Shown: positions 19,958 through 51,277, numbered from the stretch's first letter. The stretch: DNA of 64,000 nt from Pseudomonas muyukensis (GCF_019139535.1 NZ_CP077073.1:3500501-3564500); one strand, 5' to 3'. Notes: a model not told the origin generated them from the sequence alone. Translations and numbers: made by a program.

Positions 19958-19975
19958 TTCCCCAACCCTGGGGCC
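19958..19975. promoter_or_regulatory. Palindrome TTCCCCAACCCTGGGGCC, candidate enhancer site
   Basis: This 18-bp site matches TTCCCCA-N4-TGGGGAA except for the last two bases and lies 91-108 bases upstream of the sigma-54 promoter of the csg operon. Two perfect copies lie at 39073-39090 and 39117-39134 ahead of another sigma-54 promoter. The position is right for an enhancer-binding protein. Confidence 0.55.
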
Positions 19976-20065
19976 ACTCGCCCACCCAGGAGCCCTCGGG
20001 CAAAGCCCCTGTGCCACTGCCGCGAGCCGCGGTCCAGAGCCTGCCGTGCGCCCTGCCGAAGAACC

Positions 20066-20080
20066 TGGCACAACAGTTGC
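20066..20080 (+). promoter_or_regulatory. Sigma-54 promoter of the curli-like operon
   Basis: TGGCAC-AACAG-TTGC fits the -24/-12 consensus exactly, with transcription expected to start about 12 bases later, some 45 bases before the first start codon at 20136. Confidence 0.8.
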
Positions 20081-20135
20081 CCATCCCTCCCCAGACGCCC
20101 CAACCCCTGGGCCCGTATGCAGGAGGACGCGACTC

Positions 20136-21482
20136 ATGCACCGACCGACACCCCACCCGCTGGCCGTGGCGATCTTCGCCGGCCTGCTCCAGCTACCGGC
20201 CCAGGCTGCGCTGTATGCGGTCGACACCGGCCCCTACGCGCTGCCCACCGGCAAGTTCCCCGCCTGGTACCAGGACACCCATGGCCGGGTCCTCGACCTG
20301 TGCCTGTCCAAGGCCGTCAGTTCGCGGGTGGCCGGCGCCCCCGGCGCGCCGTCGTACATGTGCACCCTGCTGCCCACCCCGGGCGTGTTCGATGACACCC
20401 GCCCGCTGGCCTTCCCCAGCAACTTCCCCGACGAAGCCTTCTGGTTCACCGCCGACGCCGCCATCGTCGACGCCGCCCGCGGCATCGACCTGAGCTTCGG
20501 CACCGCCATCGAGGCGGCCTTCGGCGGCGGCGATCCGAAGGACAACGACCAGGTCAGCTTCGCCCGGGTGCGCATCCGCGTCGATGTGCCGGTGGCCGGC
20601 ACCTACGTGGTCACCCACCCCTACGGCGTCGATGTGTTCGACGTGCCGGCCGGGGGCCGCCGGGCGATCAACATGACCCGCGACATCGGCATCGGCTCGC
20701 CGGGCGATTTCAGCGGCGCGCTCAAGGGCGACGTCGGGCCATTCCTGCGCAGCGTCAATGGCCCCTACAGCGAAACCAACCCGGACACCGGCGCCAGCGA
20801 GCGCTACGTCGGCGACCCGAACCTGGAAGAGCCGGTGACCGGCAGCCCGTTCAACACCAACTTCGTGCGCATCGAGGGGCCCAACGGTATCGACCTGCGC
20901 ACCGAGCTGTTCGCGGTCTCTGGCAAGTTGTCCACGGTCAACCGCCCGACCCCGCTGATCCCGCAGCGCAGCACCTACTCGCGACACAGCGAGAACGGCG
21001 ACCTGCGCGCCCAGCAGGATGTGTTCGTCATGGCCCCGCCAGCCCCGGCCACGGTGACCCTGAGCAGCCAGGCCCCGACCCTGGCCCTGGGCGAGGCCAA
21101 CGGCACCGGCGCCTGGTACGCCCAGTCGGCGCTCAACCCGACCTTGCCGCTGACCTTGCAGGTGACCGCCGACAACAGCCTGGCCATCGCCACCAGCACG
21201 CCGACCACCGCAGCCATGCCCCTGGTCGACCTGGTGACCATCAGCCGCGCCGAGTACAGCCTGGCCAGCGGCCAGCTGACCCTGGTCGCCAGCAGCAGCG
21301 ACGAGACCAGCCCGCCGGCGCTCACCGCGCGCACCGGCACCGGCACCTTGATCGGCAGCCTCAGCGGCAACGGCGCGGTCAAGACCCTGACCACCGGGCT
21401 TTCGCCGATTCCGCCGGCACGGGTGCAGGTCAGCAGCGCCAATGGCGGCAGCGACAGCGAAGACGTGGTGCTGGTGCCATGA
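20136..21482 (+). CDS. Exported matrix-associated protein, first of two paralogues
   Basis: A 448-residue protein with a signal peptide (LAVAIFAGLLQLPAQA, cleavage before ALYAV). Residues about 25-290 share a domain with the next gene: GPYALPTGKFPAWYQD, SSRVAGAPGAPSYMCTLLP, INMTRDIGIGSPGDFSGALKGD and NTNFVRIEGPNG recur almost unchanged. The remainder is a Thr/Ser-rich beta-structured tail (TLTLVASSSDETSPPAL). Two cysteines (LCLSK, MCTLL) may form a disulfide. AGGAGGACGC precedes the ATG. It is the first gene behind the sigma-54 promoter and is followed by its longer paralogue, then csgB- and csgA-like genes, which suggests a surface role in the amyloid matrix. No known family is recognised with certainty. 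Confidence 0.8.
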   Translation: MHRPTPHPLAVAIFAGLLQLPAQAALYAVDTGPYALPTGKFPAWYQDTHGRVLDLCLSKAVSSRVAGAPGAPSYMCTLLPTPGVFDDTRPLAFPSNFPDEAFWFTADAAIVDAARGIDLSFGTAIEAAFGGGDPKDNDQVSFARVRIRVDVPVAGTYVVTHPYGVDVFDVPAGGRRAINMTRDIGIGSPGDFSGALKGDVGPFLRSVNGPYSETNPDTGASERYVGDPNLEEPVTGSPFNTNFVRIEGPNGIDLRTELFAVSGKLSTVNRPTPLIPQRSTYSRHSENGDLRAQQDVFVMAPPAPATVTLSSQAPTLALGEANGTGAWYAQSALNPTLPLTLQVTADNSLAIATSTPTTAAMPLVDLVTISRAEYSLASGQLTLVASSSDETSPPALTARTGTGTLIGSLSGNGAVKTLTTGLSPIPPARVQVSSANGGSDSEDVVLVP

Positions 21483-21514: not shown

Positions 21515-23755
21515 ATGAACACTTGGTCACGCCGTGCCCTGTGCGCCGCCGGTTTCACCCTCACCCTGAGCAGTGCGGCCTGGGCCGCGCTGTCCGAGGT
21601 CGACCCCGGCCCCTACACCTTCGCCACCGGGGGCTACCCCATGTGGTACAAGGACCACACCAACCTCGCCCTGGAGCTGTGCCAGTCGCGCGCCACCAGC
21701 AGCCGCGCCCCCGGCGCGCCCGGAGCCCCGGCCTACATGTGCACCCTGCTGCCCGAGCCAGGCGTGTACGACGACGCGCTGCCGCTGGTGTTCCCCGACA
21801 ACTGGCCGCCAGAGATGTTCTGGTTCCTCGCCGAGACCGAGATCCCGCAGGTCGGCAACAGCGGCTATGAGCTGGAGGTCTACGTGGCCGGCCTGGAGGC
21901 GGCATTCGCCGCCGAGAACCCGGTCGACGGCGACCAGCAGAGCTTCGCCCGCATCCGCATCCGCGCCTCGGTGCCGCGCGCCGGCACCTACACCATCACC
22001 CACCCCTATGGCGTGGAGACGGTCAACGTCGCCGCCGGCCAGGTCGGTCGACGGGCGATCAACATCACCCGCGACATCGGTATCGGCGCCCCGGGCAACT
22101 TCAGTGGTGCCCTGACCGGTGACCTCGGCCCGTTCCTGCGCGGCATCGGCGGCCCCTACACCGCGGTCAACCCTGATACCGGCGCCACCGAGACCTTCGT
22201 CGGCGACCCGAACATCACCGAGGCGGTGACCGGCAGCCCCAACAACACCAACTTCGTGCGTATCCAGGGCCCGGCCGGGACCATCCAGACCAACGTCTTC
22301 ACCGTCTCCGGCAAGGTCCTCGACCAGCGCCAGCAGACCCCGGTGAGCCTCGAGCGCGCCACCTACCAGCGCAACGCCGCCGGTACCCGAGTCGAGGTCT
22401 ACGCCAAGGCGCCGAACAGTGCCAGCCTGTGCTTGCGCAACGGCCTGGCGCTGGTCGGCACGCCGCCTTCGCCGTGCCAGTTCGCCCTGCTCGCCGACAA
22501 CAACGGGCTGTTCTTCAGCCAGCAACTGAGCCAGGCCGTGCCGCCGCCCGTGGTGGTGGTCACCGCCAGCAGCCCCACCGGCAGCACCCGGCCCACCTCG
22601 CTGTCGAGCAAGCTCAGCGACGTGGTCAAGGTCAACACCGCCCGCTATGACTGGGCCAACAAGCGCCTGCTGATCGAGGCGCGCTCCAGCGACGAAGTGG
22701 TGGTGCCCGACTTGCTGGTGCAGGGTTTCGGGCGCATGTCCAAGGCTGGCGTGGCGCAGAGCCTCACGGTCAACGACCTGGGCCAGCCGCCCGCGTCGAT
22801 TACCGTCAAGTCGGCCCACGGTGGCAGCGATGTCGAGCCAGTGGTGGTGGTCGGCAGCGCGCCGGTGCAGGCCGAGAACCAGGCACCGATCGCCCGCGCC
22901 GATGCGGCCAGCACCAGCGTCGGCGTCCCCGTGACCCTCAGCCTGCTGGCCAACGACAGCGACCCGGACGGCAACGTGCCGCTGTCGATCAGCGACCTCA
23001 CCCAACCTGGCACCGGCCTGGGCGGCGTGGTGCTCAATGGCACCACTGCCGTCACCTACACCCCGCCGGCCGGGGCCACCACGCCACTGCTGGTCACCTT
23101 CAGCTACCGCGCCATGGACGCCAAGGGCCTGAAGTCGACAGCAGCCACGGTGACCGTCAACGTCGCGCCGAACCAGCCGCCCAGCGCGGTGGCCGACAGC
23201 GCCGCCACCCTCGGCGTGCCGCTGACCATCAATGCCCTGGCCAACGACACCGACCCGGAAGGCAACCTGCCGCTGAGCATCGCCAGCGTCACCCAGCCGA
23301 CCACCGCCGGGCGCGGTACGGTCAGCACCGACGGCAACGTCATCACCTACACGCCACCGGCCTCGATCCCGAGCGGGTTCACCACCAGCTTCAGCTACGT
23401 CGCCCGTGATGCCCTCGGGGCGCTGTCCAGCCCCGCCACGGTCACCGTGCAGGTATCGCCACGGCCAGCCCAGGAGACCTTCGCGGTCACCGCGGCAACG
23501 GTCACCGCGCGCTCGAACAACCGCTTCAACTGGGACATCAGCGGCACCTCCTCGGTGACCACCGGCAACACCATCACCGTGCGGGTGACCACCACCACTG
23601 GCGTGCAGACCCTGGGCACCACCACGGTGCCGGTGACCGGGCGCTGGCGCCTGGCAGTGAGCAACAGCACCACGGCCGTGCCGACCGCGGCGCCAACGGC
23701 CACGGTAACCAGCAGCCAGGGCACCACCCGTACCGTCAACGTGACCGTGCAATAG
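21515..23755 (+). CDS. Exported protein with paralogous N-domain and two Ig/cadherin-like repeats
   Basis: A 746-residue secreted protein: signal peptide (CAAGFTLTLSSAAWA), then about 290 residues homologous to the preceding gene product (GPYTFATGGYPMWYKD, GAPGAPAYMCTLLP, INITRDIGIGAPGNFSGAL), a linker, and two tandem Ig/cadherin-like repeats at about 458-550 and 551-647, each with a calcium-type loop (ANDSDPDGNVPLSISDLTQP and ANDTDPEGNLPLSIASVTQP) and ending in VTVNV/VTVQV. A Thr-rich beta tail closes the protein. AAGGAGGCAGC gives the start at 21515, 32 bases after the first paralogue. No LPXTG or autotransporter domain is seen, so it may be a soluble or fibre-bound matrix protein. Function is inferred from context only. 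Confidence 0.82.
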   Translation: MNTWSRRALCAAGFTLTLSSAAWAALSEVDPGPYTFATGGYPMWYKDHTNLALELCQSRATSSRAPGAPGAPAYMCTLLPEPGVYDDALPLVFPDNWPPEMFWFLAETEIPQVGNSGYELEVYVAGLEAAFAAENPVDGDQQSFARIRIRASVPRAGTYTITHPYGVETVNVAAGQVGRRAINITRDIGIGAPGNFSGALTGDLGPFLRGIGGPYTAVNPDTGATETFVGDPNITEAVTGSPNNTNFVRIQGPAGTIQTNVFTVSGKVLDQRQQTPVSLERATYQRNAAGTRVEVYAKAPNSASLCLRNGLALVGTPPSPCQFALLADNNGLFFSQQLSQAVPPPVVVVTASSPTGSTRPTSLSSKLSDVVKVNTARYDWANKRLLIEARSSDEVVVPDLLVQGFGRMSKAGVAQSLTVNDLGQPPASITVKSAHGGSDVEPVVVVGSAPVQAENQAPIARADAASTSVGVPVTLSLLANDSDPDGNVPLSISDLTQPGTGLGGVVLNGTTAVTYTPPAGATTPLLVTFSYRAMDAKGLKSTAATVTVNVAPNQPPSAVADSAATLGVPLTINALANDTDPEGNLPLSIASVTQPTTAGRGTVSTDGNVITYTPPASIPSGFTTSFSYVARDALGALSSPATVTVQVSPRPAQETFAVTAATVTARSNNRFNWDISGTSSVTTGNTITVRVTTTTGVQTLGTTTVPVTGRWRLAVSNSTTAVPTAAPTATVTSSQGTTRTVNVTVQ

Positions 23756-23770: not shown

Positions 23771-24241
23771 ATGAAGCCCCTGCATACCCTGTTGCTGTGC
23801 CTGGCCCTGGTCGGCCAGGCCCAGGCCGACGACCTGATGGACAACGCCGACCTCGCCGCCGGCAACGACCTCGGCGAGCCGCTGGTGGTGCGCCTGCTGC
23901 CGCTGGCTGCCGGCCAGGCGGCGCTGATCGAGCAACAGGGCACAGGCAACCGCGCCGCCCTCGACCAGTCCGGCCAGGCCCTGCTGGGCCGCATCGTCCA
24001 GGCCGGGGGCGCGCAGGAGGCGTACATCCTCCAGCAAGGCAGCGACCTCAGCGCGACCATCAGCCAGCAGGGCTACGGCAACGACGCGTCGATTCGCCAG
24101 AGCGGCAGCAGCAACAGCGCCGCCATCGAGCAGGTCGGCAACCACAACAGCGCCAGCATCGACCAGCGCGGCACGGGCCTGAACAGCACCGTGACCCAGG
24201 CCGGCAATGGCCAGCAGATCCACATCACCCAGTACCGCTAG
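23771..24241 (+). CDS. csgB: CsgB-like minor curlin (nucleator)
   Basis: A 156-residue secreted amyloid subunit: signal peptide ending AQA-DDL, a short N-terminal segment, and five curlin repeats of about 22 residues following the S/A-x5-Q-x-G-x-x-N-x5-Q pattern (LIEQQGTGNRAALDQSG, TISQQGYGNDASIRQSG, AIEQVGNHNSASIDQRG). In enterobacteria CsgB is exported through CsgG and nucleates CsgA fibres. The last repeat ends NGQQIHITQYR, with a terminal arginine as in CsgB. The gene is 15 bases after the 746-residue protein gene and 20 bases before the csgA-like gene, so one transcript is likely. Assignment as nucleator rather than major subunit rests on size and order. Confidence 0.82.
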   Translation: MKPLHTLLLCLALVGQAQADDLMDNADLAAGNDLGEPLVVRLLPLAAGQAALIEQQGTGNRAALDQSGQALLGRIVQAGGAQEAYILQQGSDLSATISQQGYGNDASIRQSGSSNSAAIEQVGNHNSASIDQRGTGLNSTVTQAGNGQQIHITQYR

Positions 24242-24261: not shown

Positions 24262-25707
24262 ATGCATACGCTCGCCCCCCTGAGCGCCGCCATTGTCCTG
24301 GCCCTTGCCGGCCAGGCGCTGGCCGACGACAGCAACTCGACCCAGTCCCAGCAGGGCAACCAGAACATCGCCGAGGTCAAGCAAATGGCCGCGCCGTTCG
24401 CCTCGGCCACCCAGACCCAGACCGGCCAGGGCCACAACCACATGGCCCTGCAGGACAACAGCACCAGCCATATCCAGCAGAGCGCCAGCGGCTCGTACAA
24501 CGCCGGCTACGCCGAGCAGTTGTTCGAGAACGGCAGCCAGATCACCCAGCGCGCCGGCGGCAACACCAACGATGCCTTCGCCAGCCAGTCGGTGGGGGTC
24601 AACAACGAGGCGCTGCAGGTGCAGCAAGGCGGCGGCAACCGCTCGGTGATCTGGCAGGACACCCAGACCACCAGCCAGGCCACCACCCTGCAGTCCGGCC
24701 ACGGCAACGACGCGACCATCGAGCAGTTGTTCGGTGGCACCAACAACAAGGGCCTGATCCAGCAAGGCGGCACCGGCAACCAGGCCGCCGCCGAACACAT
24801 GACCCACCTGGACGGCGATATCGCCATCTACCAGGAAGGCAAGCAGAACTGGGCCTATGGCGACCAGCGCGATGGCCTGGGCGGCAGCATCGGCATCAAC
24901 CAGTACGGTACCGGCAACTCGGTGGAGGTGTGGCAGGACAACCAGTCCGCCAGCTATGCCAACGTCTACCAGAATGGCCAGCAGAACGAAGGCTACATCG
25001 ACCAGAGCTTTGGCCAGGGCAACACGGCCGGCCTGAGCCAGACCGGCCGCGGCAACGCCAGTTGGTCGGACCAGTTCGAGACCAGCCAGTCGGTCACCAG
25101 CATTTCGCAGATCGGCAACAACAACCTGCATTTCACCTACCAGACCGGCGACAACCATAGCCTGAGCATCAGCACCCAGGGCAATGGCAACCAGATCATG
25201 GCCAGCAACTGGAAGGGCGCGAAGTCAGGTGGGCAGTTCGGTGACAGCCAGCACGCCGAGATCAACCAGGCCGGCAATGGCAATGGCGTGAACATCACCC
25301 AGGAAGGCAGCAGCCAGCTGGCGCGGTTGAACCAGTACGGTAACCGCAACCAGATGGAGACTCGCCAGGGCGACAGCAACAACGAGTTGTATTTCGAGCA
25401 GAACGGTAGCGACAACCTGCTGATCGCCGACCAGCGCGGTAGCGCCAACTACGCCGAGGGCCTGGCCGGGGGCAATGGCGGCAGCATCAGCCTCGATCAG
25501 TCCGGCAGTGGCAACCAGAGCTATACCTACCAGCTGTATGGCCAGGGCAACCAGGCCACCATCAAGCAGACCGACGGCGTCAACCTGGCCTACGTGACTC
25601 AGGGCGGCAATGGCAACCAGGCCTTTGTCGACCAGAGCGGGGCCAGCCAGACGGCCACCATTACACAGTACGGCAATGCCAACATGGCGACCGTTACCCA
25701 GCAGTGA
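24262..25707 (+). CDS. csgA: Very long CsgA-like major curlin
   Basis: A 481-residue secreted protein, three times the length of E. coli CsgA (about 150). After the signal peptide (AAIVLALAGQALA) nearly the whole chain is made of about 19-20 repeats of 22-23 residues with the curlin spacing Q-x-G-x-x-N-x-x-x-x-x-Q (examples INQYGTGNSVEVWQDN, LSQTGRGNASWSDQF, INQAGNGNGVNITQEG, ITQYGNANMATVTQQ). Gln/Asn ladders and Gly turns at fixed positions are what build the curli cross-beta solenoid. There is no cysteine. GGAGGCATCACC precedes the ATG. A terminator and a G-quadruplex motif follow. Export would need CsgG/E/F, encoded at 29.4-31.1 kb on the other strand. Confidence 0.85.
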   Translation: MHTLAPLSAAIVLALAGQALADDSNSTQSQQGNQNIAEVKQMAAPFASATQTQTGQGHNHMALQDNSTSHIQQSASGSYNAGYAEQLFENGSQITQRAGGNTNDAFASQSVGVNNEALQVQQGGGNRSVIWQDTQTTSQATTLQSGHGNDATIEQLFGGTNNKGLIQQGGTGNQAAAEHMTHLDGDIAIYQEGKQNWAYGDQRDGLGGSIGINQYGTGNSVEVWQDNQSASYANVYQNGQQNEGYIDQSFGQGNTAGLSQTGRGNASWSDQFETSQSVTSISQIGNNNLHFTYQTGDNHSLSISTQGNGNQIMASNWKGAKSGGQFGDSQHAEINQAGNGNGVNITQEGSSQLARLNQYGNRNQMETRQGDSNNELYFEQNGSDNLLIADQRGSANYAEGLAGGNGGSISLDQSGSGNQSYTYQLYGQGNQATIKQTDGVNLAYVTQGGNGNQAFVDQSGASQTATITQYGNANMATVTQQ

Positions 25708-25724
25708 TGCCCTTCCCCCTTGGA

Positions 25725-31947: not shown

Positions 31948-31952
31948 CGCCG

Positions 31953-38973: not shown

Positions 38974-38988
38974 GCAGGCTTCGTGCCA
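38974..38988 (-). promoter_or_regulatory. Sigma-54 promoter of the receiver/secretion/csgEFG operon
   Basis: On the minus strand TGGCAC-GAAGC-CTGC, one base off the consensus at the -12 box, lies 66 bases before the GTG start of the receiver gene. Confidence 0.65.
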
Positions 38989-41368: not shown

Positions 41369-41394
41369 CCATGAAAGCCCCAAGCGAAACCTTG

Positions 41395-41510
41395 GGGGAG
41401 CGGCCTTGCGTCGCGCAAGGGGCGCGCGGCGACTTCGGGATGTCAGCACAGACACATGAATCGCCGGGGCTGCGTCGCAGCCCTTTCGCGACGCAAGGCC
41501 GCTCCTACAG
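41395..41510. repeat. REP inverted pair
   Basis: GGGGGAGCGGCCTTGCGTCG on the left and its complement ending CTCCTACAG on the right, separated by about 60 bases; same type as at 268-384. It divides the Sco genes from the cytochrome fusion within the operon, where it may cause partial transcript processing. Confidence 0.85.
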
Positions 41511-41562
41511 GCGTTGCGCCAGCGCTCGACAATGTGTTGCCACAGCGACCGGGCCATGGCTG

Positions 41563-42210
41563 CTATCGCCCGGCCAGGGGTTGGGCCAGCAGTTGCAAGC
41601 GCTGGGCAATGGCCGCAGGCGGCGCGTCTGGGCGGATCTTGCTCCAGCGCTTGCCCGCCACGTCGCCGGCGATCAGCTGGGTCGAGTGCTGTTCAGGGCT
41701 GGGCAGGAACTGCCCCAACCGCCCGAGCACCAGCTCGACGCTGGCCTTGTCGCCTGTGAGGAACAGCCAGTTCGGTCCATCCACCCCCTGCTGGCCGGCA
41801 AAGGCCTTGAGCACCTCGGGGCTGTCGTTGAGCGGGTCGCTGCTCACCGAGACGAAGGTCACCTGCGCCGCCAGCGCCGGCCCCATGGCCTCGCGCACCT
41901 CGCGCAGCTTGCGGGTGATCAGCGGGCAGGCATCGTTGCAGTGGGTGAAGATCACATTGAGCATCACCACCTTGTCCTTGAGCACATCGCTGTAGAAGCG
42001 CAGCGCGCGGCCGTTCTGGTCTTTGAGCACGGTATCGGTGAACCAGGCCTGCGCATCGCGGGTACCGCCGCCGCTGACCATCGGCTGCGGCGCAGGTTGC
42101 GCGGTCGGGGCGTGGCCCTCGTGGGCCAACGCCATCGAGGTGAAGATCCACAGGCAGGCCGCCAGCACCAGCCAGTCGAGGCTGCGCATGCGTGAAGTGT
42201 GGCTACTCAT
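41563..42210 (-). CDS. SCO1/SenC-type copper/thioredoxin-like protein
   Basis: A 215-residue periplasmic protein (N-terminal hydrophobic anchor or signal WLVLAACLWIFTSMALA) with the SCO fold: VIFTHCNDACPLI gives the C-x3-C copper site at Cys91 and Cys95, and a downstream histidine (HSTQLIAGD) is the probable third ligand. SCO proteins deliver copper or reduce thiols for cuproenzymes. It overlaps the second SCO gene by ATGA. The natural client is the multicopper oxidase MnxG. Confidence 0.87.
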   Translation of the reverse strand: MSSHTSRMRSLDWLVLAACLWIFTSMALAHEGHAPTAQPAPQPMVSGGGTRDAQAWFTDTVLKDQNGRALRFYSDVLKDKVVMLNVIFTHCNDACPLITRKLREVREAMGPALAAQVTFVSVSSDPLNDSPEVLKAFAGQQGVDGPNWLFLTGDKASVELVLGRLGQFLPSPEQHSTQLIAGDVAGKRWSKIRPDAPPAAIAQRLQLLAQPLAGR

Positions 42211-42860
42211 GGTTGAGCCTCCTGGCCGGCGATGGCCGTGCTCTTGGCATGCACCCGGCGGGCGCCGAGGCGGTTGATCTCGGTGACCAGCACGTTGGGG
42301 TCGGTGAAACCGTAAAAACGTGTCCAATGGCCACTGCGCCCGTCACCGACCAGGATCAGCGGCGGGTGCTCGCTGAGGTTGGCGCTGAAACTGCCCAGCC
42401 CCTTGAGGGTTTCGCTGATGGCGTAGGGCGAGCCGGTCAACCAGCTCCAGCCCGGCCCGTGCTGGAAGGCCCGGGCATACCCGGCCAGGCGCTTGGCATC
42501 GTCGCGCTGCGGGTCGATGCTGATCGACACCAGGCGGATCTCCTCCCCCACCCGACCGCCGAGCTGCTGCTGGACCTTGCTCATGATCGACGACACCACC
42601 GGGCACACCGTGGTGCAACTGGTGTAGATGAAGCCCATGACCACCAGGTGGTCGCCGACCAGGTCCTGTTCCAGGCGCACCGGCATGCCGTCCTGGTCAA
42701 GCAGCGGCACATCGGCGAAGCGCACGCTGGCCTTTTCCTGGCGGGCGGCGGGCGGCTCGGCGGGCTTGGCGCCGTGCTCATGGCCGGCATGGGCCAGGGC
42801 CAACGGGCTGGCCAGCAACAGGCTCAAGCCCAGCAGGGTGATGGCGGTGGGTCGATTCAT
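42207..42860 (-). CDS. SCO1/SenC-type copper protein
   Basis: A 217-residue exported protein (signal ITLLGLSLLLASPLALA) with a His-rich start of the mature part (HAGHEHG) and the C-x3-C site YTSCTTVCPVV at Cys82 and Cys86, then SISIDPQRD. A histidine in LSEHPPLILV is the likely third copper ligand. With the neighbouring paralogue it forms a tandem copper-delivery pair; both are coupled by overlaps to the propeller gene upstream and to each other. Confidence 0.88.
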   Translation of the reverse strand: MNRPTAITLLGLSLLLASPLALAHAGHEHGAKPAEPPAARQEKASVRFADVPLLDQDGMPVRLEQDLVGDHLVVMGFIYTSCTTVCPVVSSIMSKVQQQLGGRVGEEIRLVSISIDPQRDDAKRLAGYARAFQHGPGWSWLTGSPYAISETLKGLGSFSANLSEHPPLILVGDGRSGHWTRFYGFTDPNVLVTEINRLGARRVHAKSTAIAGQEAQP

Positions 42861-44836
42861 CGCAGGCTCCTGGGTTCCCCTTGGGAAGCGGTAGGCGTCG
42901 CCGTGGCCGGCAGCACGCGCAGGCTGGTGTAGTTCTCTTCGGCGAAGGTGCGACCAAGGCTGGGCGACTGCACGTGCAGGTACCAGGCGCCGGCCTCGGC
43001 CAGCTCCAGCGCGGCCTGGTAGACCCCCTCGCCCATGTCCACCAGTTGCACGTTGCGCGGCAGCGACGAGGGCGCGAGGAAGTAGCGCAGGGTCAGGTCG
43101 CTCAGGCCGGTGCGCGGCTGCCCGTCCTCGCCGAGGATGCGCACCCGGGCCAGGTACGGGCTGTGCTGGCGCGCCAGCTGGTCGGCACCGATGAACTCGG
43201 CATGCACGCGCTTGTGCAGGCTGGACTGCGGCAGCGCCGCCACTTCGGTGCTGAAGCAATGGATGATCTGCGGCTGGTTGAGCAGGAACGCCACATCGAA
43301 GGTGCCGGCGGCCGGCAGTTTCACCGTCGAGCCATACACCCCCGGCGCCACCTCGCGCAGGCTGCGGTCGATGACCATGGCCGCGCGGGCCTGCTGGCCG
43401 CGGTTGTTGTAGCCGGACATCGGCGCGTTCATGCCTTCGGCGTAGAAGTAGGTGGTGTTGTCCACCGGGTTGACCACGAACACCGCGTTGTCGTCGCGCG
43501 ACACGCTCACGCCCTGGGCCAGTGGCAGGTCGCCGGCCTGGCGCGGCGCCGCGGGCCCGGCCTCGAAGCCCTGGACGATCGGCTCACGGCCCTGGCCGAG
43601 GCTGGCCAGGTTGATCATGCTGACTTTCGCCGAGGCCAGGCCGCGCACGTAGGCATAGCCCTTGGTGAAGGTCAGCTGGTAGGGCTCGGCGGCCACCGGG
43701 ATGCGGTGGAGCAACTGGTCGTTGCTGGCATCGATCACCAGGGCCTGGTTCTCCAGGGTGTTGAGCACCACGCCATAGCGCCCGTCGCGGCTGAAGCGCA
43801 TCGGCCCCAGGCCCTGCTCGGCCTTGACCTTGTGGCGCAACTGGTGGCTGCGGGCGTCGATCACCCACACCACGCCCTCCTCGCCATCGACCACATACAC
43901 CGCCTGGGACAACGGCGAATAGGCCACCGCCAACGGCTGGCGGCCGACCTCGAGGGTTTTCACCAGGCGCATCTGGGCGATGTCGATGACGCTCAAGGTG
44001 CCGGCGTCGCGGTTGCTGACGAAGGCGTACCGCGAGTCGGCGCTGAAGGCGATCTCGTGGTGGCCGGAGCCGGTGGCGAACGATTTGAGCGTGGTGCGGC
44101 TGGGCACATCGATCACCGTCACCCCGCCCTTGGCCGGATCGCTGCTGTTGTTGCCCACCCACAGCAGGCGCTGGTCAGGTTGCAGGGCCACCCGCAGCGG
44201 CTGTTCGCCGGCCTCCAGGGTGGCCACGCGGGTGAAGGTCTCGGTGTCTATCAACGCCACCTGGTTGCGTTCGGGCATGGACACGAACACCTGCTTGTCG
44301 TCGCCGGTGGCCACCCAGTCCATGGGCCGGCCGGGCAGGTCGATGCGCGCCAGGGTGCTGGTGACCCCGCCCACCGAAACCGTGGGGTCGATCACCGTGA
44401 GGCTGGCGTCCTTGTTCAGCACCAGCAGGAAGTAGCTGTTGAGGTCGAGCAAGGGTCGGGCGCCGATGCTGCTTTTGAGGAACAGCGCCACCCGTGCCTT
44501 GCAGCTGCTGTCGCGATCACCGAGCGGGGCCGCTTGCGCCGGGTCCAGCCAGGCACCGGGGGCCATGCCCGAGAGCGGCTGGCCGCTGGCCTGGTCGCTG
44601 AGCTTGAAGCGGATGCTGGCGAAGTCGCCCTCGCGCAGTTCGCTGCCGCTCAGGGGCCGCGCCTCGAACTCGACGGTCACCCCGTCGCGGCTGAGGCGAT
44701 GCAGGGCCTGGGGATCGGCGGCCTCCTGCAACAGCTCGCGGGGGTCGCACCAGAGCTTTTCGTAGGCGATCCCCAGGCCGATCAGCGCGCTGCCCAGCAG
44801 CAGGCCCAGGTATACCGGGCGCAGCTTGCGGTTCAT
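42857..44836 (-). CDS. Membrane-anchored YVTN-type beta-propeller protein
   Basis: A 659-residue protein anchored by one N-terminal helix (VYLGLLLGSALIGLGIAYEKLW). The core (about 140-470) is a beta propeller with repeated blades (VFVSMPERNQVALIDTETFTRVATLEAG, YAFVSNRDAGTLSVIDIAQMRLVKTLEVG, VYVVDGEEGVVWVIDARSHQLRHKV), followed by a C-terminal Ig-like region (RVRILGEDGQPRTGLSDLTLRYFLAP). Such proteins bind redox partners or scaffold assemblies in the periplasm. The ATG at 44836 overlaps the stop of a 14-codon leader frame. It is the first structural gene behind its own sigma-54 promoter. Confidence 0.8.
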   Translation of the reverse strand: MNRKLRPVYLGLLLGSALIGLGIAYEKLWCDPRELLQEAADPQALHRLSRDGVTVEFEARPLSGSELREGDFASIRFKLSDQASGQPLSGMAPGAWLDPAQAAPLGDRDSSCKARVALFLKSSIGARPLLDLNSYFLLVLNKDASLTVIDPTVSVGGVTSTLARIDLPGRPMDWVATGDDKQVFVSMPERNQVALIDTETFTRVATLEAGEQPLRVALQPDQRLLWVGNNSSDPAKGGVTVIDVPSRTTLKSFATGSGHHEIAFSADSRYAFVSNRDAGTLSVIDIAQMRLVKTLEVGRQPLAVAYSPLSQAVYVVDGEEGVVWVIDARSHQLRHKVKAEQGLGPMRFSRDGRYGVVLNTLENQALVIDASNDQLLHRIPVAAEPYQLTFTKGYAYVRGLASAKVSMINLASLGQGREPIVQGFEAGPAAPRQAGDLPLAQGVSVSRDDNAVFVVNPVDNTTYFYAEGMNAPMSGYNNRGQQARAAMVIDRSLREVAPGVYGSTVKLPAAGTFDVAFLLNQPQIIHCFSTEVAALPQSSLHKRVHAEFIGADQLARQHSPYLARVRILGEDGQPRTGLSDLTLRYFLAPSSLPRNVQLVDMGEGVYQAALELAEAGAWYLHVQSPSLGRTFAEENYTSLRVLPATATPTASQGEPRSLR

Positions 44837-44877: not shown

Positions 44878-44919
44878 GCTGCACCTCCACAGGTTCAAGG
44901 GGTCTCTGAAGGGGTGCAA

Positions 44920-44934
44920 GCAAGCGTTGTGCCA
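44920..44934 (-). promoter_or_regulatory. Sigma-54 promoter of the propeller/Sco operon
   Basis: Minus-strand TGGCAC-AACGC-TTGC is an exact consensus match, 43 bases before the leader ATG and 84 before the propeller ATG. Confidence 0.78.
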
Positions 44935-45378: not shown

Positions 45379-48300
45379 CTACTGCCCCGACGCCACCGCC
45401 GGCGGCGCTTCATTGGTCACCCGCAACAACCCCCACAACCCCGACGTATTCCCATACGCCGCATAATCCCGGTACAGGTAATCCCCCGGCAGCGCATTCG
45501 CGCCCCCGGCACTGGGCAGCATGAAGCTGAAGTGCGCCGCCGGCAGCACGCTCTCCTGGGCGCCGATGTACATCGCCATCGGGTTGTAGCCAAAGCGCAC
45601 CGAGCCAATCCCCGGCAGCCCCATCGGATAGCCCTCGACATCATTCTTCTCGGCCTGGAAGTTGTGCAGCGGCCAGACATGCCCATCGAGCTGGTAGGTC
45701 ATGCCGCGGCTCCCGCCGCTGGGCATGACGATATGGTTGCGCACTGGCTGCCCGGGCTTGGCGTACAGCACCGGGGTCTGCGGGTCACCGCCAACCAGGG
45801 CGTTGCTATAGGCCATGTGCGCATTGGGAATATCGGCAAAGCCCAGCCCGTCGGCATGGCCGAACGGCGAGTCCGGGGCCATGCCGAAGCGCAGCCACAA
45901 CGGCTCGGTCCGGTAGTTCACCGCCATGTTGCCGTTGTCCTGCGGGTCACCTGCCGCGCCGTTGCCCTCGGTGTTGATCCCCGCCACCGGGGCGCCGTCG
46001 GCCCAGCGCATGTTCAGCGCCCGCTGCCACACCGTGACGAAGTCGCGGTAGTCGGCCTGGCCGCTGACTTTTACCGTGGCCTGGGCGCGGCTGGCGTTGT
46101 CCTCGGTCCAGGTCGCGCCCTGCGGCAGGATGCTCATCGCGCCCACCAGGCCCTTCTGCGGCTGCTTGATCACGTCCGCCGGGGTCAGGTTGAGGCCGCC
46201 GAACTCGATGGCGGTGGTGTTGATGTTGTCCACCGTGCGGCCCAGTTGCAGGGTCGGCTTGCCTTCGCGCTCCAGGTGCCCGGCATAGTACTGGTACACC
46301 TTGCTCGGGTAGGCGCCGCTGCTGCCAGTGCGCGGCGCCACGGTCTGCACCGGGTTGAGGCCGACGTTGACACCATCGGACTTGGTGATGTCGTAGGCCA
46401 GCAGTTGCGCGTGCAAGCCCACCTGGCTGGACGGACGCATCAGGTTGTTGGCGAAGGCCGTGGCGCCCTCGCTGTCGAAGCGGTCGCGCTTGACCACGTT
46501 GTGCATCACCGCGGTGCTGGGCAGGTCCGGCATCATCAATGGCAGGCGGTTTTCCAGGGTGACGCTGATGCAGTCGCCGGCATTGGCGCGCAGGATCAGC
46601 GGCTCCACCGGCACGCCGGGCTTGAGCTTGCCAGTGCCTGGGTCGAGGTCGGCCTTGCGCACATAGAGGATGGCCGTCGGGTCGTGCAGCGGCGCGCTGT
46701 GGCCACCGACGGTGAAGGTCTCGCCATCCTCGGGGTCGACCCCGCTAACCAGCGGGATGCTGGTACGCCGGCTGTTGAACACCAGGGTGCCGCCATTGGC
46801 CTTGAGCGCCCCGCCAACGTGCTGGCCGACGCCATTGGGGTCGTTGATGGCCAGGTTGTGGCGGTTTTCGAGGATGTCGTTGGCCAGCGCCGCGACCACT
46901 TCGTAGCTGCGCTTGACCGTCGGCCGGGTGCCGATGCCATTGGCGTTGGCCGTGGTTTTCGGGCAGATGCCGTCGAAGTTCACGGTGTTGCGCATGGCCA
47001 CCGGCTGTGGGTTGTTGGGCAGTGGGAACAGGTCGGCGCGTTGTGCGGTGTAGTTGCGCATGATGCCCCAGATACCGTTCCAGTAGCCCTCGAGCGCCGC
47101 GTCCAGCGAGTACAGGTAGTCGCCGTTGCTGGCCGCGGAACTCGAGATCATCGACACCGGCGCCATGAAGCCCAGTTGCTCGGAAATGCCGATCATCTGC
47201 GAGGACTTCCACCCCGAGTTGGAGCTGTTGCCGAAGCCAGAGCCATTCTGTAGCCACTTCACCCCGTGCAAGGTGACGTTGTGTTCCTCTTCGTGGCCAC
47301 CGGCGTGCATGCGCAGGCGCACGTTATCACCCGAATAGGTGCGCAGCATCGGGGTGAACGGGTCGCCCGGCTCGCTGCCGGCCTTGTTGATATGCGGCGG
47401 GAACAAGGTGGTGCCGCCCGTGGGGCCGACCGCCTGGGTGATCGCCGAGGGCGCCAGGTTCATCGCCGGGATGGCCCGGTCGGTGCGGGTCTGCAGGGCG
47501 TAACCAAGGTCGCCGCCAGGCCCGTCGGCCTGCATGCCGCGCTTGCCGTCGGGGCCGACCTTGTTCGGGTCGAACACCCGCAAGGCCAGGGGCTCGTTGC
47601 GGTAGTTGACGACGAACATGCCGGGGTCGTCCACCGAGATCGCCTGCGGGCAGGGCCGAGTCGGGCAGCCGGGGTTGATACCGCCGCGTGCCTCGACAAT
47701 GGCCTCGAGCAGGTTGGAGGCCTTGCCGCGCACCGGCGGGTTGATGGCGTAACGGAAACTGTCGGCGGTGGCCGGGTAGGCCTGGCCGTCCGGCACGCCG
47801 TTGGGGCCGGCGCCAACGTACACGCCGGCTTCATAGGCGTGCTGGAAGTCGCTGTATTCGAGGAAGAACTCGCGGTAGCTGTCGTTCTTGCCATCGCCAT
47901 CGTGGTCGCCGGTCTGGATCACCGCCTGCCACGAGGTCGGGCCGCCGTCCTGGCGGGTGGCCGGGTTGTACAGTTGCTCGCCGGTCTCGGCGTGGTACCA
48001 GGTGGAGCCGGCGGGCTCGGCCAGCACGGTGGCGTACAGGCCCAGTTGCTGGTGGGTCGAGGGGCCGAGGTGGTCGTGGGTGAAGATGGTGCCCAGGCCA
48101 CGGTCGACGTTATGCACGTTGACCAACGGGTCGGCGAACCAGCGCTGCATGGCGGTGCGCGCACCGAGCCAGTCGGCACGGCCGAAGCGGCCGAAGTACG
48201 GATGCTGCTTGGCTTTCGGGCAGGCCGCGGTGCCATCGCGGGCATCGCCCTCGCTGCAATTGTTGAAGCTGCGGATGGCATGCACGCGCTCGACCACGCT

Positions 48301-51222
48301 GCCGGGCGAGAGGATACCGTCCTCGTAGTTCCAGCCGTTGGCCGAACCGTCGGCGGCAGTCAGGTCCCACTTGGGCAGGTGAATATGCTGGCCGATCACG
48401 TCGGTGGGGGTGCGCACCTGGTAGTCGTCCATCTCGTAGAACGACGGGATCAGGTTGGTGTGCACGTACTGGGTGCAGTCGAAGGTGTTCATGCGCATCA
48501 CCAGCGGCTCTGGCGGGCGCTGCTTGGTGATCACCGGCCAGGCGTCCTCCCACAGGGCGAGGATGCGCGCCTGCGGGAAGTGATAGCCGACCTTGTTGTA
48601 CACCGCATCGAACTGGATGTTGGCGGCCTTGTACAGCCGCGGCCGGTCGGCGGTGAAAGTGGAGGCGCCACGGAAACTCATGCCGGTGAGGCTCTCGCCG
48701 CTGAAAAACTCGCCCACCCCGGACGCCTGGGTCAGGCGCTTGCCACGGTCATCCATGCACGGCTCATAGAATGGCGCGCCGGCGGTGGGCAAGGCGCCGT
48801 TGGTGCGAAAAGCCCTGGCCACCGGCTGGCTGCCGGGGATCAGGGCAAAGCTTGGATGCTCGGCCTTGGCGTGGAACTGCATGGCCGCCTGTTCGACCTC
48901 GGTGCCCTCTTCGGGCAAGTAGATCGGCTTGGCCTTGTGCACCACCTTGGAAAAATCCAGCTTGGTGGTGGTGGTCACGGCATCCCCACCGGCAGACACA
49001 CCGTCGAGGGTGTGCCGGCCCAGGCCGCCGTCCCAGCCGTCGACCTGGTTGGGGTCAAGGTTGGCCCACAGGGCCTTGCCGCTGTCCTTGAGCTGACGGG
49101 CCAGGGCCGGGTCGAGCATGTCCAGCGGCGGGGTCGGCGGGCGTTGGCCGACGCTGCTTTCCATGCCGCCGATCCAGAACGGGTAACCGGGGTTCTTCAG
49201 CGTGCCGTCGGCATTGCGGTTGCCCTCGCTGCGGTCGACCAGGGCCAAGGAGCCGACCGCGCGTGGCGCGGCGGGCTCAGCGGGATGATCGTCGCCCTGC
49301 TCCTGGTTATCGTCATGCCCGGCGAGCAGGGTTTCGGACAGCTTGGGCACCACGCTGACCTTGCCCGGCATCGGCGCCATGGCCTTGCCCGGCAACGGCA
49401 CGATGGCCGGGATCGGCGTGCCGGCGACGATCTCGCCGTCCGGCAGCGCCCGGGCACCCAGGGCCGGCTTGCCGCTGCGCAGGGCGAACGGCGTGGTATG
49501 GAAGCCGTTTTCGCCCTCGCCGCTGACGGCCAGCCGGGTGCCGGGCTCGAACACATCGTGCACCCGCCACATGGCCCACATGCCCTGGGCGAAGTGCGGG
49601 TAGAAGTGGCAGTGGTAGATGGCATCGCCCGCCACCCGGTTGCGGTTGCCCGAGCCGCCGTTGGCGATCTCGTAGGTGTAGCCCACCCCGGGGCCGATGC
49701 CCTGGGCATCGATGTAGTCGGAGTTGTCGTCGTTGGGGTTGAACAGCCACTGGTGCCCGTGCAGGTGGAAGATATGCTGCTCGTGGCCATTGTGGGTGTT
49801 GCGAAACTTGGTGAAATCGCCGATGTAGCTGTGGTGCACGTTGGCCGGTTCGGCCGGGTACAGGGCCATGCTCGCCTTCACCCCGATGGCGCTGGCCGGC
49901 GGTACTTCGCCTGGGCGGATATGCTCGAGGCCGACGTTGGCCGGGATGTCCACCAGGGTGCCGATGTCACCGACGGTATGGGCGCTGAGGAAAAACTCCT
50001 CGTAGGCGCACGACAGGCAGTCGTGCATCGGCCCCACCCCCAGGCGATTGGCCACCACCTCGGCGCCCATGCCGCCGGAGCCGTAGTTGATCATGAACGA
50101 GTCGCGGGTCGGCTCCAGCACATGGCCCATCACCGGGTCGGCCCAGTAACCGGGGAAGGCCTGGGTGCCGGCGACTTCGTCGGCGAACTGCGAGGCGAAG
50201 TCGCGAAACGCCTCGAGCCGGTTGGGCAACGCCGGGTTGCGCTTGCCGACGCTTTCCAGCGGGTAGGTATTCTTGGGGAAGCTGCCGTCGGGGTTGGGGC
50301 CCATGACGATGGCATCGGTCTCGCTGTTGATGATCTCGTTGCCATCGACCATGGCGATGATCGGCTTGCCGGCCTTGCCTTCGGCGATCCACGGCTGGCT
50401 TTGCGGGTAGCGCGCCGCGTAGTCGATCACCGGCTGGCCGGTGGCGGTGCGGCCAGTGGTGGCCAGGCGCATTTCCTCCTCGGTCAGGGTGTTGCGATAG
50501 GTACGCCCGGCCTTGGGCACCACCACCACCTGGCCGAACAGGCCGTTGGCGACGTTGCCGGCATTGCCCTCGCCGCCGAACGGCGCGCCGCGACTGGAGG
50601 CGGCGAAGGCGCCTTCACGCTCGGCATACAGGGTGTAGCTGCGGGTGCTGCCCGGGGCCACCAGGAAGTTGCCGTTGCGCCCGGTGTTGGCGGCGATGTC
50701 GGCGATGCTGTTGACCGCCTGCATGCCGTTGACCTGGAAGCCCACGTGACGGTCGCTGACCTGTTGGTCGGCGATGAAGTGCTCGCCCCCCTCGCCGTCC
50801 GGCAGCTCGAGTTCCTCGCCCTCCTCGCCTTCTGGCTCCTCGGGCTCGATGCCGTGCTTGTTGGGGTTGGCCTGGTAAGCCAGCAGGTTGGTCAGGTTGA
50901 CCGTCAGGCAATCACCGGCGGCCACCCGCAGCACGATCGGCCGCGGGCGCTTGTCCGGGCGCAGGGTGACCTTGCCCGGCACTGCGGCGCCGCCGTTGCT
51001 CAGCAGCACCTGGCGCTCGTCCACCACGTCCTGGCGCAGGGCGAACAGCATGCCGTTGGCGTTCTGCGCGCCGAGGCGGTTGAACATCAGTGGCTGGTCC
51101 AGGGCCACCACGTTGGCCACCAGCGTGCGCTGGCACTGCACGGCCGCCTCGCTGCTCGCCTGCCAGGCGAGCAGCGCCAGCAGCAATGAGGACAAGGCCG
51201 GGCCTTTGCGGGGGGTCGACAT
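45379..51222 (-). CDS. mnxG: Giant multicopper oxidase, MnxG-type Mn(II) oxidase
   Basis: A 1947-residue exported protein, matching in size and content MnxG of Mn(II)-oxidising P. putida strains, where it oxidises Mn2+ to Mn(III/IV) oxide at the cell surface. Copper-site motifs: HIFHLHGHQWLF near 487, YHCHFYPHFAQGMWAMWRVHDV near 537, FTHDHLGPSTHQQLGLYA near 1054, HNVTLHGVKWLQ near 1319 and DGHVWPLHNF near 1850, so several cupredoxin modules in series. An acidic patch (EPEEPEGEEGEELELPDGEG, about 125-148) could bind Mn2+. A signal peptide (LSSLLLALLAWQASSEA) is present. GGAGGTGCCCC gives the start; a sigma-54 promoter is 40 bases upstream. Copper loading probably comes from the two Sco proteins downstream. 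Confidence 0.93.
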   Translation of the reverse strand: MSTPRKGPALSSLLLALLAWQASSEAAVQCQRTLVANVVALDQPLMFNRLGAQNANGMLFALRQDVVDERQVLLSNGGAAVPGKVTLRPDKRPRPIVLRVAAGDCLTVNLTNLLAYQANPNKHGIEPEEPEGEEGEELELPDGEGGEHFIADQQVSDRHVGFQVNGMQAVNSIADIAANTGRNGNFLVAPGSTRSYTLYAEREGAFAASSRGAPFGGEGNAGNVANGLFGQVVVVPKAGRTYRNTLTEEEMRLATTGRTATGQPVIDYAARYPQSQPWIAEGKAGKPIIAMVDGNEIINSETDAIVMGPNPDGSFPKNTYPLESVGKRNPALPNRLEAFRDFASQFADEVAGTQAFPGYWADPVMGHVLEPTRDSFMINYGSGGMGAEVVANRLGVGPMHDCLSCAYEEFFLSAHTVGDIGTLVDIPANVGLEHIRPGEVPPASAIGVKASMALYPAEPANVHHSYIGDFTKFRNTHNGHEQHIFHLHGHQWLFNPNDDNSDYIDAQGIGPGVGYTYEIANGGSGNRNRVAGDAIYHCHFYPHFAQGMWAMWRVHDVFEPGTRLAVSGEGENGFHTTPFALRSGKPALGARALPDGEIVAGTPIPAIVPLPGKAMAPMPGKVSVVPKLSETLLAGHDDNQEQGDDHPAEPAAPRAVGSLALVDRSEGNRNADGTLKNPGYPFWIGGMESSVGQRPPTPPLDMLDPALARQLKDSGKALWANLDPNQVDGWDGGLGRHTLDGVSAGGDAVTTTTKLDFSKVVHKAKPIYLPEEGTEVEQAAMQFHAKAEHPSFALIPGSQPVARAFRTNGALPTAGAPFYEPCMDDRGKRLTQASGVGEFFSGESLTGMSFRGASTFTADRPRLYKAANIQFDAVYNKVGYHFPQARILALWEDAWPVITKQRPPEPLVMRMNTFDCTQYVHTNLIPSFYEMDDYQVRTPTDVIGQHIHLPKWDLTAADGSANGWNYEDGILSPGSVVERVHAIRSFNNCSEGDARDGTAACPKAKQHPYFGRFGRADWLGARTAMQRWFADPLVNVHNVDRGLGTIFTHDHLGPSTHQQLGLYATVLAEPAGSTWYHAETGEQLYNPATRQDGGPTSWQAVIQTGDHDGDGKNDSYREFFLEYSDFQHAYEAGVYVGAGPNGVPDGQAYPATADSFRYAINPPVRGKASNLLEAIVEARGGINPGCPTRPCPQAISVDDPGMFVVNYRNEPLALRVFDPNKVGPDGKRGMQADGPGGDLGYALQTRTDRAIPAMNLAPSAITQAVGPTGGTTLFPPHINKAGSEPGDPFTPMLRTYSGDNVRLRMHAGGHEEEHNVTLHGVKWLQNGSGFGNSSNSGWKSSQMIGISEQLGFMAPVSMISSSAASNGDYLYSLDAALEGYWNGIWGIMRNYTAQRADLFPLPNNPQPVAMRNTVNFDGICPKTTANANGIGTRPTVKRSYEVVAALANDILENRHNLAINDPNGVGQHVGGALKANGGTLVFNSRRTSIPLVSGVDPEDGETFTVGGHSAPLHDPTAILYVRKADLDPGTGKLKPGVPVEPLILRANAGDCISVTLENRLPLMMPDLPSTAVMHNVVKRDRFDSEGATAFANNLMRPSSQVGLHAQLLAYDITKSDGVNVGLNPVQTVAPRTGSSGAYPSKVYQYYAGHLEREGKPTLQLGRTVDNINTTAIEFGGLNLTPADVIKQPQKGLVGAMSILPQGATWTEDNASRAQATVKVSGQADYRDFVTVWQRALNMRWADGAPVAGINTEGNGAAGDPQDNGNMAVNYRTEPLWLRFGMAPDSPFGHADGLGFADIPNAHMAYSNALVGGDPQTPVLYAKPGQPVRNHIVMPSGGSRGMTYQLDGHVWPLHNFQAEKNDVEGYPMGLPGIGSVRFGYNPMAMYIGAQESVLPAAHFSFMLPSAGGANALPGDYLYRDYAAYGNTSGLWGLLRVTNEAPPAVASGQ

Positions 51223-51262
51223 GGGGCACCTCCGGGACGCAGGGATTCTGCGGGGAGCCGGA

Positions 51263-51277
51263 GCAAGGCCCGTGCCA
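51263..51277 (-). promoter_or_regulatory. Sigma-54 promoter of mnxG
   Basis: Minus-strand TGGCAC-GGGCC-TTGC is an exact -24/-12 match ending 41 bases before the mnxG ATG. It fits the published need for the sigma-54 activator MnxR for Mn oxidation in P. putida GB-1. A CCACAACCGG block at 51347-51356, shared with the palindrome at 39073, is a possible activator half site. Confidence 0.8.

Follow-up and report, generated by a model that had tools for sequence, protein, structure and literature searches.

Manganese oxidase, pseudopilin-type secretion and curli genes in a probably co-regulated locus of Pseudomonas

Gene content of the locus

The window analysed here is a stretch of 64,000 nucleotides (3500501-3564500) of the 5.53-Mb genome of Pseudomonas muyukensis (GCF_019139535.1, NZ_CP077073.1), and its subject is a 31-kb region (19958..51277) in which genes for a predicted Mn(II) oxidase, a secretion machine and curli lie together. 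A previous reading of this DNA (the sequence-only reading) had placed there mnxG, two Sco copper proteins, a propeller, a cytochrome c fusion, a chaperone, a receiver, a pilus-like machine, csgEFG and csgB/csgA-like genes with two paralogous exported proteins. Every one of these is present, and the exported proteins (ExpA and ExpB) are 47% identical across their alignment. It is concluded, at a probability of about 0.7, that the region represents the Pseudomonas locus for Mn(II) oxidation, that the curli and Xcm genes genuinely belong to it and that its operons are co-regulated as proposed. Oxidase, export machine and amyloid genes travel together and are probably switched on jointly.

The ends of the region coincide with regulatory sites, 19958 being the first base of the palindrome upstream of expA and 51277 the outer edge of the -24/-12 site of mnxG. 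On the minus strand, the gene order from mnxG to csgG is mnxG, propeller, sco1, sco2, fusion, SurA_N, receiver, ATPase, the PilM to PilP positions, TPR-secretin, three prepilin-like genes, csgE, csgF and csgG.

Manganese-oxidase genes

The genes of the oxidase half of the locus are as follows.

45379..51222, minus strand: mnxG, giant multicopper Mn(II) oxidase, 1947 amino acids (aa) (NCBIfam NF041487 3862 bits, cut-off 3100; Cu-oxidase_3)
42857..44836, minus strand: beta-propeller protein, 659 aa (Cytochrom_D1/YNCE-like propeller matches)
42207..42860, minus strand: sco1, Sco-type copper protein (SCO1-SenC 1.8e-18)
41563..42210, minus strand: sco2, second Sco-type copper protein (SCO1-SenC 6.5e-14, longer frame)
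39875..41557, minus strand: cytochrome c and Peripla_BP_6 fusion (Pfam matches)
39152..39787, minus strand: SurA_N-like chaperone (SurA_N_3 9.6e-16)

MnxG of the window clears the NCBIfam equivalog cut-off, Mn(II) oxidation itself being predicted. The real start of the fusion gene is probably further inside the frame, since in the more distantly related Pseudomonas its protein is matched only from approximately residue 47-86 onwards. In genome G087, contig 4 (L025:8177-19978) carries a second mnxG with a propeller gene, divergent from a different csgE-csgF-curlin-csgG set, and no xcm or sco match was found at this second locus in the stretches examined.

The Xcm secretion machine

The xcm genes, named by analogy with those of Pseudomonas putida GB-1, follow the receiver gene.

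38378..38911, minus strand: receiver-domain protein, first gene of the xcm-csg operon (Response_reg 2.9e-24)
36636..38324, minus strand: xcm assembly ATPase, GspE/PilB type (T2SSE 3.6e-125)
35873..36655, minus strand: PilM-position protein (by position and overlap; no Pfam match above cut-off)
35329..35871, minus strand: PilN-like protein (PilN 1.6e-4, 22.1 bits, just under the cut-off of 22.8)
34791..35342, minus strand: PilO/GspM-like protein (PilO 1e-6, T2SSM_b 1.1e-6)
34297..34791, minus strand: PilP-position protein (by position alone; no Pfam match)
32423..34300, minus strand: TPR-secretin (Secretin 2.1e-40, and TPR)
31953..32426, minus strand: pseudopilin 1 (N_methyl 2.1e-7)
31573..31947, minus strand: pseudopilin 2, GspG-like (N_methyl 4.6e-10, T2SSG 2.9e-4)
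31077..31598, minus strand: xcmX-like divergent prepilin-like protein, adjoining csgE (start GERGFTYLGVLLLIA; no Pfam match above cut-off)

An assembly ATPase, a secretin, a PilO-like protein and prepilins were all detected, as in type II secretion systems (T2SS) and type IV pili. The ATPase and secretin did not reach the NCBIfam equivalog or subfamily cut-offs for GspE, PilB, GspD and PilQ, and the Xcm machine is classed from its proteins as akin to both systems and a member of neither canonical type. The genes from the ATPase to csgF overlap or sit a few bases apart, as in one operon. The GspF/PilC platform gene lies outside this operon: a stand-alone GspG-GspF pair is located approximately 244 kb beyond the mnxG end, beside a palindrome site, and its position in relatives suggests that it would serve the Xcm machine.

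The best matches of the xcmX-like protein (40-46%) are to same-position genes in three Burkholderiales operons. Such GspE/F-secretin pseudopilin operons (Eleftheria, Janthinobacterium and Cupriavidus metallidurans) are alike in machine type and gene order, with secretin and ATPase at 40-56% identity. Unlike the window locus, they show no csg or mnxG match in the stretches examined, and ExpB is matched there only by a stretch of Ig domains, in the Cupriavidus locus.

Curli genes and the ExpA/ExpB family

The csgEFG genes end the minus-strand operon, while the curlin genes lie on the opposite strand behind expA and expB.

30685..31080, minus strand: csgE (CsgE 7.9e-39, longer frame; equivalog 179 bits, cut-off 137)
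30269..30688, minus strand: csgF (CsgF 3.8e-32)
29399..30235, minus strand: csgG (CsgG 5.1e-82)
20136..21482, plus strand: expA, exported protein of an MnxG-associated family (family comparisons; no Pfam match, longer frame)
21515..23755, plus strand: expB, paralogue of expA with bacterial Ig domains (Big_9 7.8e-26, longer frame)
23771..24241, plus strand: csgB-like gene (Curlin_rpt 5.9e-22, 4 repeat stretches)
24262..25707, plus strand: csgA-like gene, 481 aa (Curlin_rpt 3.5e-29, 11 repeat stretches)

CsgE, CsgF and CsgG are each above their Pfam cut-offs. The CsgA-like protein is under the NCBIfam cut-offs, with 106 of 160 bits against the CsgA model and 87 of 165 against the CsgB model. In gene content, the window shares CsgE, CsgF, CsgG and curlin repeats with the curli system of Escherichia coli. 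It differs in that csgEFG end a pseudopilin operon, that csgBA belong to an ExpA/B operon with a sigma-54-type promoter and that CsgA is long.

The first domain of ExpA and ExpB has no match in Pfam, and an AlphaFold model of ExpA built with six sequences had a mean predicted local distance difference test score (pLDDT) of 53, too low for a fold search. ExpA/B is the least explained component of the locus and a good candidate for the surface partner of the oxidase. On a plasmid of Skermanella mucosa (L078:12173-16698), an ExpA/B-type protein is encoded side by side with a multicopper oxidase and a Sco gene. In G049 (L062:2703-8213), expB is spread over several frames with stops and the expA and csgA matches are partial or in pieces, alongside full-length mnxG and xcm genes.

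Co-occurrence and gene order in Pseudomonas

The genus survey covered 149 Pseudomonas genomes. A secretin was counted as present at 69% identity or more, and eight further genomes with a 33-36% match were excluded. MnxG was found in 46 genomes, CsgF in 49, the secretin in 47 and ExpB in 47. All 46 MnxG genomes have both the secretin and ExpB, and 45 have CsgF; with phylogeny ignored, Fisher P values for co-occurrence with MnxG are approximately 7e-38 for both the secretin and ExpB, and 3e-32 for CsgF. The sequence-only reading had staked its case on such a comparison across the genus, and the csg and mnx genes proved not to be independent. G021 is the sole extra genome with secretin and ExpB.

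Gene order was examined in stretches from 18 other MnxG genomes. The series from mnxG to csgG is kept in one piece in 13, including G136, in which csgE is cut and csgF and csgG are gone. Among the remaining five, mnxG lies approximately 180 kb away in G102, the series is cut by contig ends in G025, G076 and G133, and G088 is seen from pilM on. In ten further genomes expA, expB, csgB and csgA are all found in this order, as one operon. The operon is located on the same contig, approximately 95-420 kb from csgG, in G057, G102, G103 and G109; on another contig in G025, G129 and G130; on the mnxG side in G015 and G096; and approximately 11 kb beyond csgG in G133.

The locus is patchy in the genus (46/149), as would be expected of a gene island united by chance or horizontal transfer and lacking a common function. 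This explanation is very improbable: the genes of the long operon overlap or touch, promoters are shared after relocation, the divergence of eight genes matches over 13 genomes (r 0.83-0.97, without a housekeeping control) and the association recurs in other classes. A class survey found CsgF in six of 303 genomes including the window's own; the stretches from G155, G157, G287 and G421 showed no xcm, mnxG or exp match, and the fifth other genome, G172, is represented by a short contig.

Promoter sites and a shared palindrome

The putative sigma-54 (-24/-12) sites and palindromes of the locus are listed here, with sigma-54 scores in relatives.

51262..51277, minus strand: -24/-12 site of mnxG, TGGCACGGGCCTTGCT (exact consensus match; 58/58 sequences at >=5.5)
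44919..44934, minus strand: -24/-12-like site of the propeller gene (5/56 sequences at >=5.5)
38973..38988, minus strand: -24/-12 site of the receiver-xcm-csgEFG operon (56/56 sequences at >=5)
20066..20081, plus strand: -24/-12 site of expA-expB-csgB-csgA, TGGCACAACAGTTGCC (22/23 sequences at >=5)
39117..39134, no strand: palindromic upstream site 1 of the receiver operon, TTCCCCAACACTGGGGAA (sole exact match genome-wide)
39073..39090, no strand: palindromic upstream site 2 of the receiver operon (one mismatch)
19958..19975, no strand: palindromic upstream site of expA, TTCCCCAACCCTGGGGCC (two mismatches)

The sigma-54 score was chosen by the authors and widened slightly (half a point, T for C at one position) between the window scan and the comparative scan. 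A one-mismatch scan of the window's genome returned 56 sites against 32 for a reversed control; single sites are therefore weak, and conservation was used instead. Relatives were collected by an MnxG-alignment scan of species genomes, which gave at least 503 relatives; 80 loci were kept, 37 of them labelled neither Pseudomonas nor Pantoea. The promoter, palindrome and flank counts used 40 of the 42 Pseudomonas-labelled loci, omitting the short contigs L146 and L161 as well as the Pantoea-labelled L148. As the named loci overlap with the surveyed genomes (for example, L160 with a G087 contig), the promoter, palindrome and remote-block flank counts contain duplicates.

It had been claimed that sigma-54 promoters precede all major units. 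This holds for mnxG, the receiver operon and expA, where the sites are conserved, and is slightly too strong as worded because the propeller site reaches 5.5 in so few sequences. A site scoring 5 or more also precedes slt, a lytic transglycosylase gene considered below, in 37 of the 37 loci where its start was read, and internal genes have almost none. Shuffled sequences reached 5.5 in 21 of 3880 cases, this control covering that threshold only. The -24/-12 site is retained before far-relocated expA operons (L191, L192, L195 and L204).

The palindrome TTCCCCA-N4-TGGGGAA was defined after inspection of the upstream DNA of this locus, and counts at the locus are therefore not blind; scans of the window's genome and of the genus serve as independent checks. 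At least 11 of 14 positions match before the receiver gene in 54 of 56 sequences, before mnxG in 38 of 58 and before expA in 19 of 23 (one at -413), in comparison with 8 of 415 at eleven control positions and 5 of 137 shuffled sequences. The window's genome holds 16 sites with up to two mismatches versus three for the reversed control. Three of these have at most one mismatch, two before the receiver gene and one at 3793726, and those with up to two include the site of expA and one at 3795987. Across the genus, 68 palindromes with at most one mismatch were found in the 46 MnxG genomes (control 43) versus 45 in the 103 others (control 72; P = 3e-8); part of this enrichment is base composition, because a small difference is seen with the control pattern too (P = 0.045). 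The main operons are thus read as having conserved sigma-54-type promoters and a common putative activator site, weaker at mnxG, and shared regulation of the operons, as predicted from these sites, is well supported by sequence. In G021 (L043:4053-4235), a mnxG-type promoter and an exact palindrome stand directly before sco1, mnxG and the propeller gene being gone.

A remote regulator block

The sites at 3793726 and 3795987 sit among genes for a sigma-54 response regulator, two histidine kinases, the lytic transglycosylase (slt), GspG and GspF, approximately 239-244 kb beyond the mnxG end in the window's genome. The regulator bears Sigma54_activat and HTH_8. By domain content and position, the kinases and regulator presumably correspond to MnxS1, MnxS2 and MnxR of P. 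putida GB-1. Genes for GspF-GspG and slt lie upstream of mnxG in 26 of the 40 named Pseudomonas loci, and several others end too soon. In G027, G060, G062, G087, G100 and G136, genes of the block flank the cluster at both ends; beyond expA lie one or two kinase genes, joined in some of these genomes by the regulator gene. The mnxR gene is inside the stretch examined in G027, G060, G087 and G136, and a single kinase is seen in G027 and G060. The regulator is instead on the xcmS side in G015 and L136. Since genes of the remote block flank the cluster in relatives, the ancestral arrangement was probably a single locus reaching from xcmS to mnxR, which has come apart in the strain of the window.

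Instead of the sigma-54 regulator near xcmT1, another factor could bind the palindrome and account for the shared sites. This is quite unlikely, although relatives do not consistently keep the palindrome that precedes mnxS1 in the window's genome and the receiver of the xcm operon is left without an assigned target. That receiver shows no DNA-binding domain in a Pfam search, whereas the sigma-54 regulator has both an activator and an HTH_8 domain, and a close homologue of it (69-85% identical) is encoded beside the cluster in G015, G027, G060, G087, G136 and L136.

MnxG-like loci outside Pseudomonas

Four homologues from outside Pseudomonas scored 807-2345 bits, under the MnxG equivalog cut-off, and are therefore termed MnxG-like only. 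A propeller match occurs in 33 of the 37 non-Pseudomonas loci. Acidobacteriota, Anaeromyxobacter, Jettenia, Roseomonas, Hyphomonas and a Bacillota bin all have MnxG-like genes accompanied by matches to the propeller, the Sco proteins and the cytochrome fusion. A phylum survey found MnxG-like proteins in three of 398 genomes including the window's own, the locus of G602 meeting a contig end.

T2SS-type genes are adjacent in eight of the 37 loci (L100, L101, L102, L128, L129, L150, L163 and L171; in L102 pseudopilins, recognized by eye). A single row of genes in Hyphomonas BRH_c22 (L150) encodes a T2SS, the MnxG-like module, CsgF, CsgG and proteins with curlin repeats, and in L171 (Hyphomonadaceae) curli genes lie beyond the MnxG-like module on the same contig. 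Two of three Hyphomonadaceae loci thus combine the module with both T2SS and curli; no CsgF was found in the genome of the third, L129. A plasmid of Indioceanicola carries an MnxG-like module, GspE/F, a secretin, a cytochrome fusion and an ExpA/B homologue around genes of FapD- and FapB-like type; approximately 6 kb separate a FapF-like gene from the MnxG-like one. The matches are 3.6e-31 for FapF (to PDB 5o65), 3.5e-43 for FapD and a weak 3.3e-4 for FapB. All three proteins are homologous yet under the NCBIfam equivalog cut-offs, and are therefore called Fap-like. This plasmid resembles the Pseudomonas Fap system in these proteins and differs from it in their scores; the window locus carries curli instead.

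The Xcm machine might export ExpA and ExpB, or build a pilus, with MnxG reaching the surface by another route. The secretin and ExpB are the most tightly tied parts of the locus, occurring in all MnxG genomes and in the mnxG-less G021, and ExpA-like genes are found within 10 kb of MnxG-like genes in six of the 37 loci (L109, L112, L113, L114, L117 and L125), from several phyla. On the other hand, T2SS genes stand beside MnxG-like genes with no ExpA in the stretch examined in L100, L101, L129, L150, L163 and L171 (alpha- and gammaproteobacteria), and an xcmX mutant of P. putida GB-1 was reportedly impaired in secretion of the oxidising factor. Such a route is possible, at roughly one chance in three by our judgement.

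Tandem MnxG-like genes were seen in Methylobacter luteus and a gammaproteobacterial bin (L119:10064-20983 and L178:3691-15664). In the gammaproteobacterium G539 (L095:225-6389), an MnxG-like gene is accompanied by propeller, Sco and cytochrome c genes; approximately 5 kb from the MnxG-like gene, upstream in L089, lies a putatively tyrosinase-like reading frame.

Proposed coupling of the oxidase to secretion and amyloid

Why bacteria oxidise Mn(II) and how the oxide is placed outside the cell are long-standing questions. In the model proposed here, two MnxS-like kinases would activate the MnxR-like sigma-54 regulator, which would bind the palindrome and turn the operons on jointly. As expected from their families, the Sco proteins would load copper into MnxG, the Xcm machine with the separately encoded GspF and GspG would move MnxG and/or ExpA/B across the outer membrane, and CsgE, CsgF and CsgG would export CsgB and CsgA as amyloid. 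The fibre, with ExpA/B, might then hold oxidase and oxide at the cell surface, the least certain step. The joint switching-on of matrix and oxidase put forward in the sequence-only reading is borne out as far as a conserved unit with shared sigma-54 sites and palindrome goes, also where the expA operon has relocated; it does not extend to an absolute coupling.

Several observations weigh against this model. The palindrome is weak (9/14) at the window's own mnxG promoter, 11 of the 16 palindrome sites lie elsewhere in the genome, palindromes before mnxS or xcmT1 are not consistent in relatives, and a -24/-12 site at score 5 was found in only 2 of 37 xcmT1 promoters. Many of the counted sequences come from close relatives or from one genome entered twice. 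CsgF occurs without MnxG in four of the 149 Pseudomonas genomes (G020, G068, G114 and G148), which have a different curli with csgE, csgF and csgG 31-50% identical. G136 lacks CsgF genome-wide and shows no csgG, csgA or csgB match in the 40 kb examined, while retaining mnxG, xcm and expAB; the oxidase thus persists without curli, and the coupling is not absolute. Outside Pseudomonas most MnxG-like genomes are without curli: of 38 genomes or records, four have CsgF and four a sub-cut-off FapF-like match (one at 3.7e-5), and only three of these eight are shown near MnxG (L150, L171 and the Indioceanicola FapF). CsgF is on the MnxG contig in two of its four genomes (L150 and L171), and Indioceanicola also has a CsgF-CsgG pair approximately 680 kb off on the same plasmid.

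G021 shows another loss: it retains sco, xcm (as far as the contig end) and expAB, with no MnxG or CsgF match genome-wide, no propeller on the contig and no csgB/csgA beside expAB. Taken together, the losses in G136 and G021 show that the oxidase can be parted from the genes for secretion and fibre, and that the secretin and ExpB remain paired.

Curli could be a general attachment fibre, co-regulated with the oxidase and without a physical role in Mn oxidation. Apart from G136, the four CsgF-only genomes and the lack of both CsgF and FapF in most non-Pseudomonas MnxG-like genomes, plasmids agree with this: CsgG was found on 47 plasmid records, and among the 30 listed only Indioceanicola is also among the 16 records with an MnxG match, its CsgG lying far from MnxG. 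Against it, CsgF is kept by nearly all MnxG genomes, the curlin operon has the common promoter type and palindrome, and curli or Fap-like genes recur beside MnxG-like genes in Hyphomonadaceae and Indioceanicola. A curli without such a role is considered rather unlikely. A fibre serving as scaffold for Mn oxide is plausible, G136 speaking against a strict need for it, and since another class shows the pairing with an amyloid of a different type, it may be a product of selection and not of accident.

More broadly, an extracellular apparatus for mineral formation may recur in Proteobacteria, with an MnxG-type oxidase at its centre, export of T2SS type and an amyloid that can be exchanged, being curli in Pseudomonas and Hyphomonadaceae and Fap-like in Indioceanicola. 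A widely shared protein of the ExpA family would link enzyme to matrix, and in Pseudomonas one sigma-54 activator would control the apparatus by reading TTCCCCA-N4-TGGGGAA. This generalization is offered tentatively, at somewhat less than even odds.

Relation to known systems

The joint cluster had been thought to be possibly undescribed. That does not hold for the link between xcm and csg: in P. putida GB-1, de Vrind et al. reportedly found in 2003 (Mol. Microbiol.) that xcm pseudopilin genes beside csg homologues are needed for secretion of the Mn-oxidising factor. In that study xcmT2-xcmT3-xcmX are said to lie next to csmE-csmF-csmG, with xcmT1-xcmS a separate pair, and it is not known to have reported mnxG, csgBA, ExpA/B, the kinases and shared promoter sites as one locus. 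The window compares well with this description: csgEFG are preceded by three prepilin-like genes, and a GspG-GspF pair of its own lies at a distance. It is likewise similar to the MnxG and MnxS1-MnxS2-MnxR system of GB-1 in its MnxG equivalog and in two histidine kinases encoded together with one sigma-54 response regulator; the palindrome and its regulon, proposed here, are the difference from the GB-1 Mnx system. To this the present analysis adds the locus in full, a proposed regulatory code, ExpA/B as a candidate family of partners, the cases of loss and the recurrence with curli or Fap-like amyloid in other lineages. The gene set, the proposed site, ExpA/B and the natural losses (G136 without CsgF, G021 without mnxG) make a role of amyloid in Mn oxidation genetically testable.

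Adjacent genes

An mqo gene and an EamA transporter gene (26730-29377) separate csgG from csgA. Among the stretches from the 18 other MnxG genomes, mqo is present in G109 only and the EamA gene in none, so both look unrelated to the locus. The gap between csgA and mqo (25710-26680) is non-coding and contains short GACTTT- and CAAGAGCAGAT-type repeats, with inverted copies of CACCTTTTCGCCTTTACGGCGA near 25885 and 26480.

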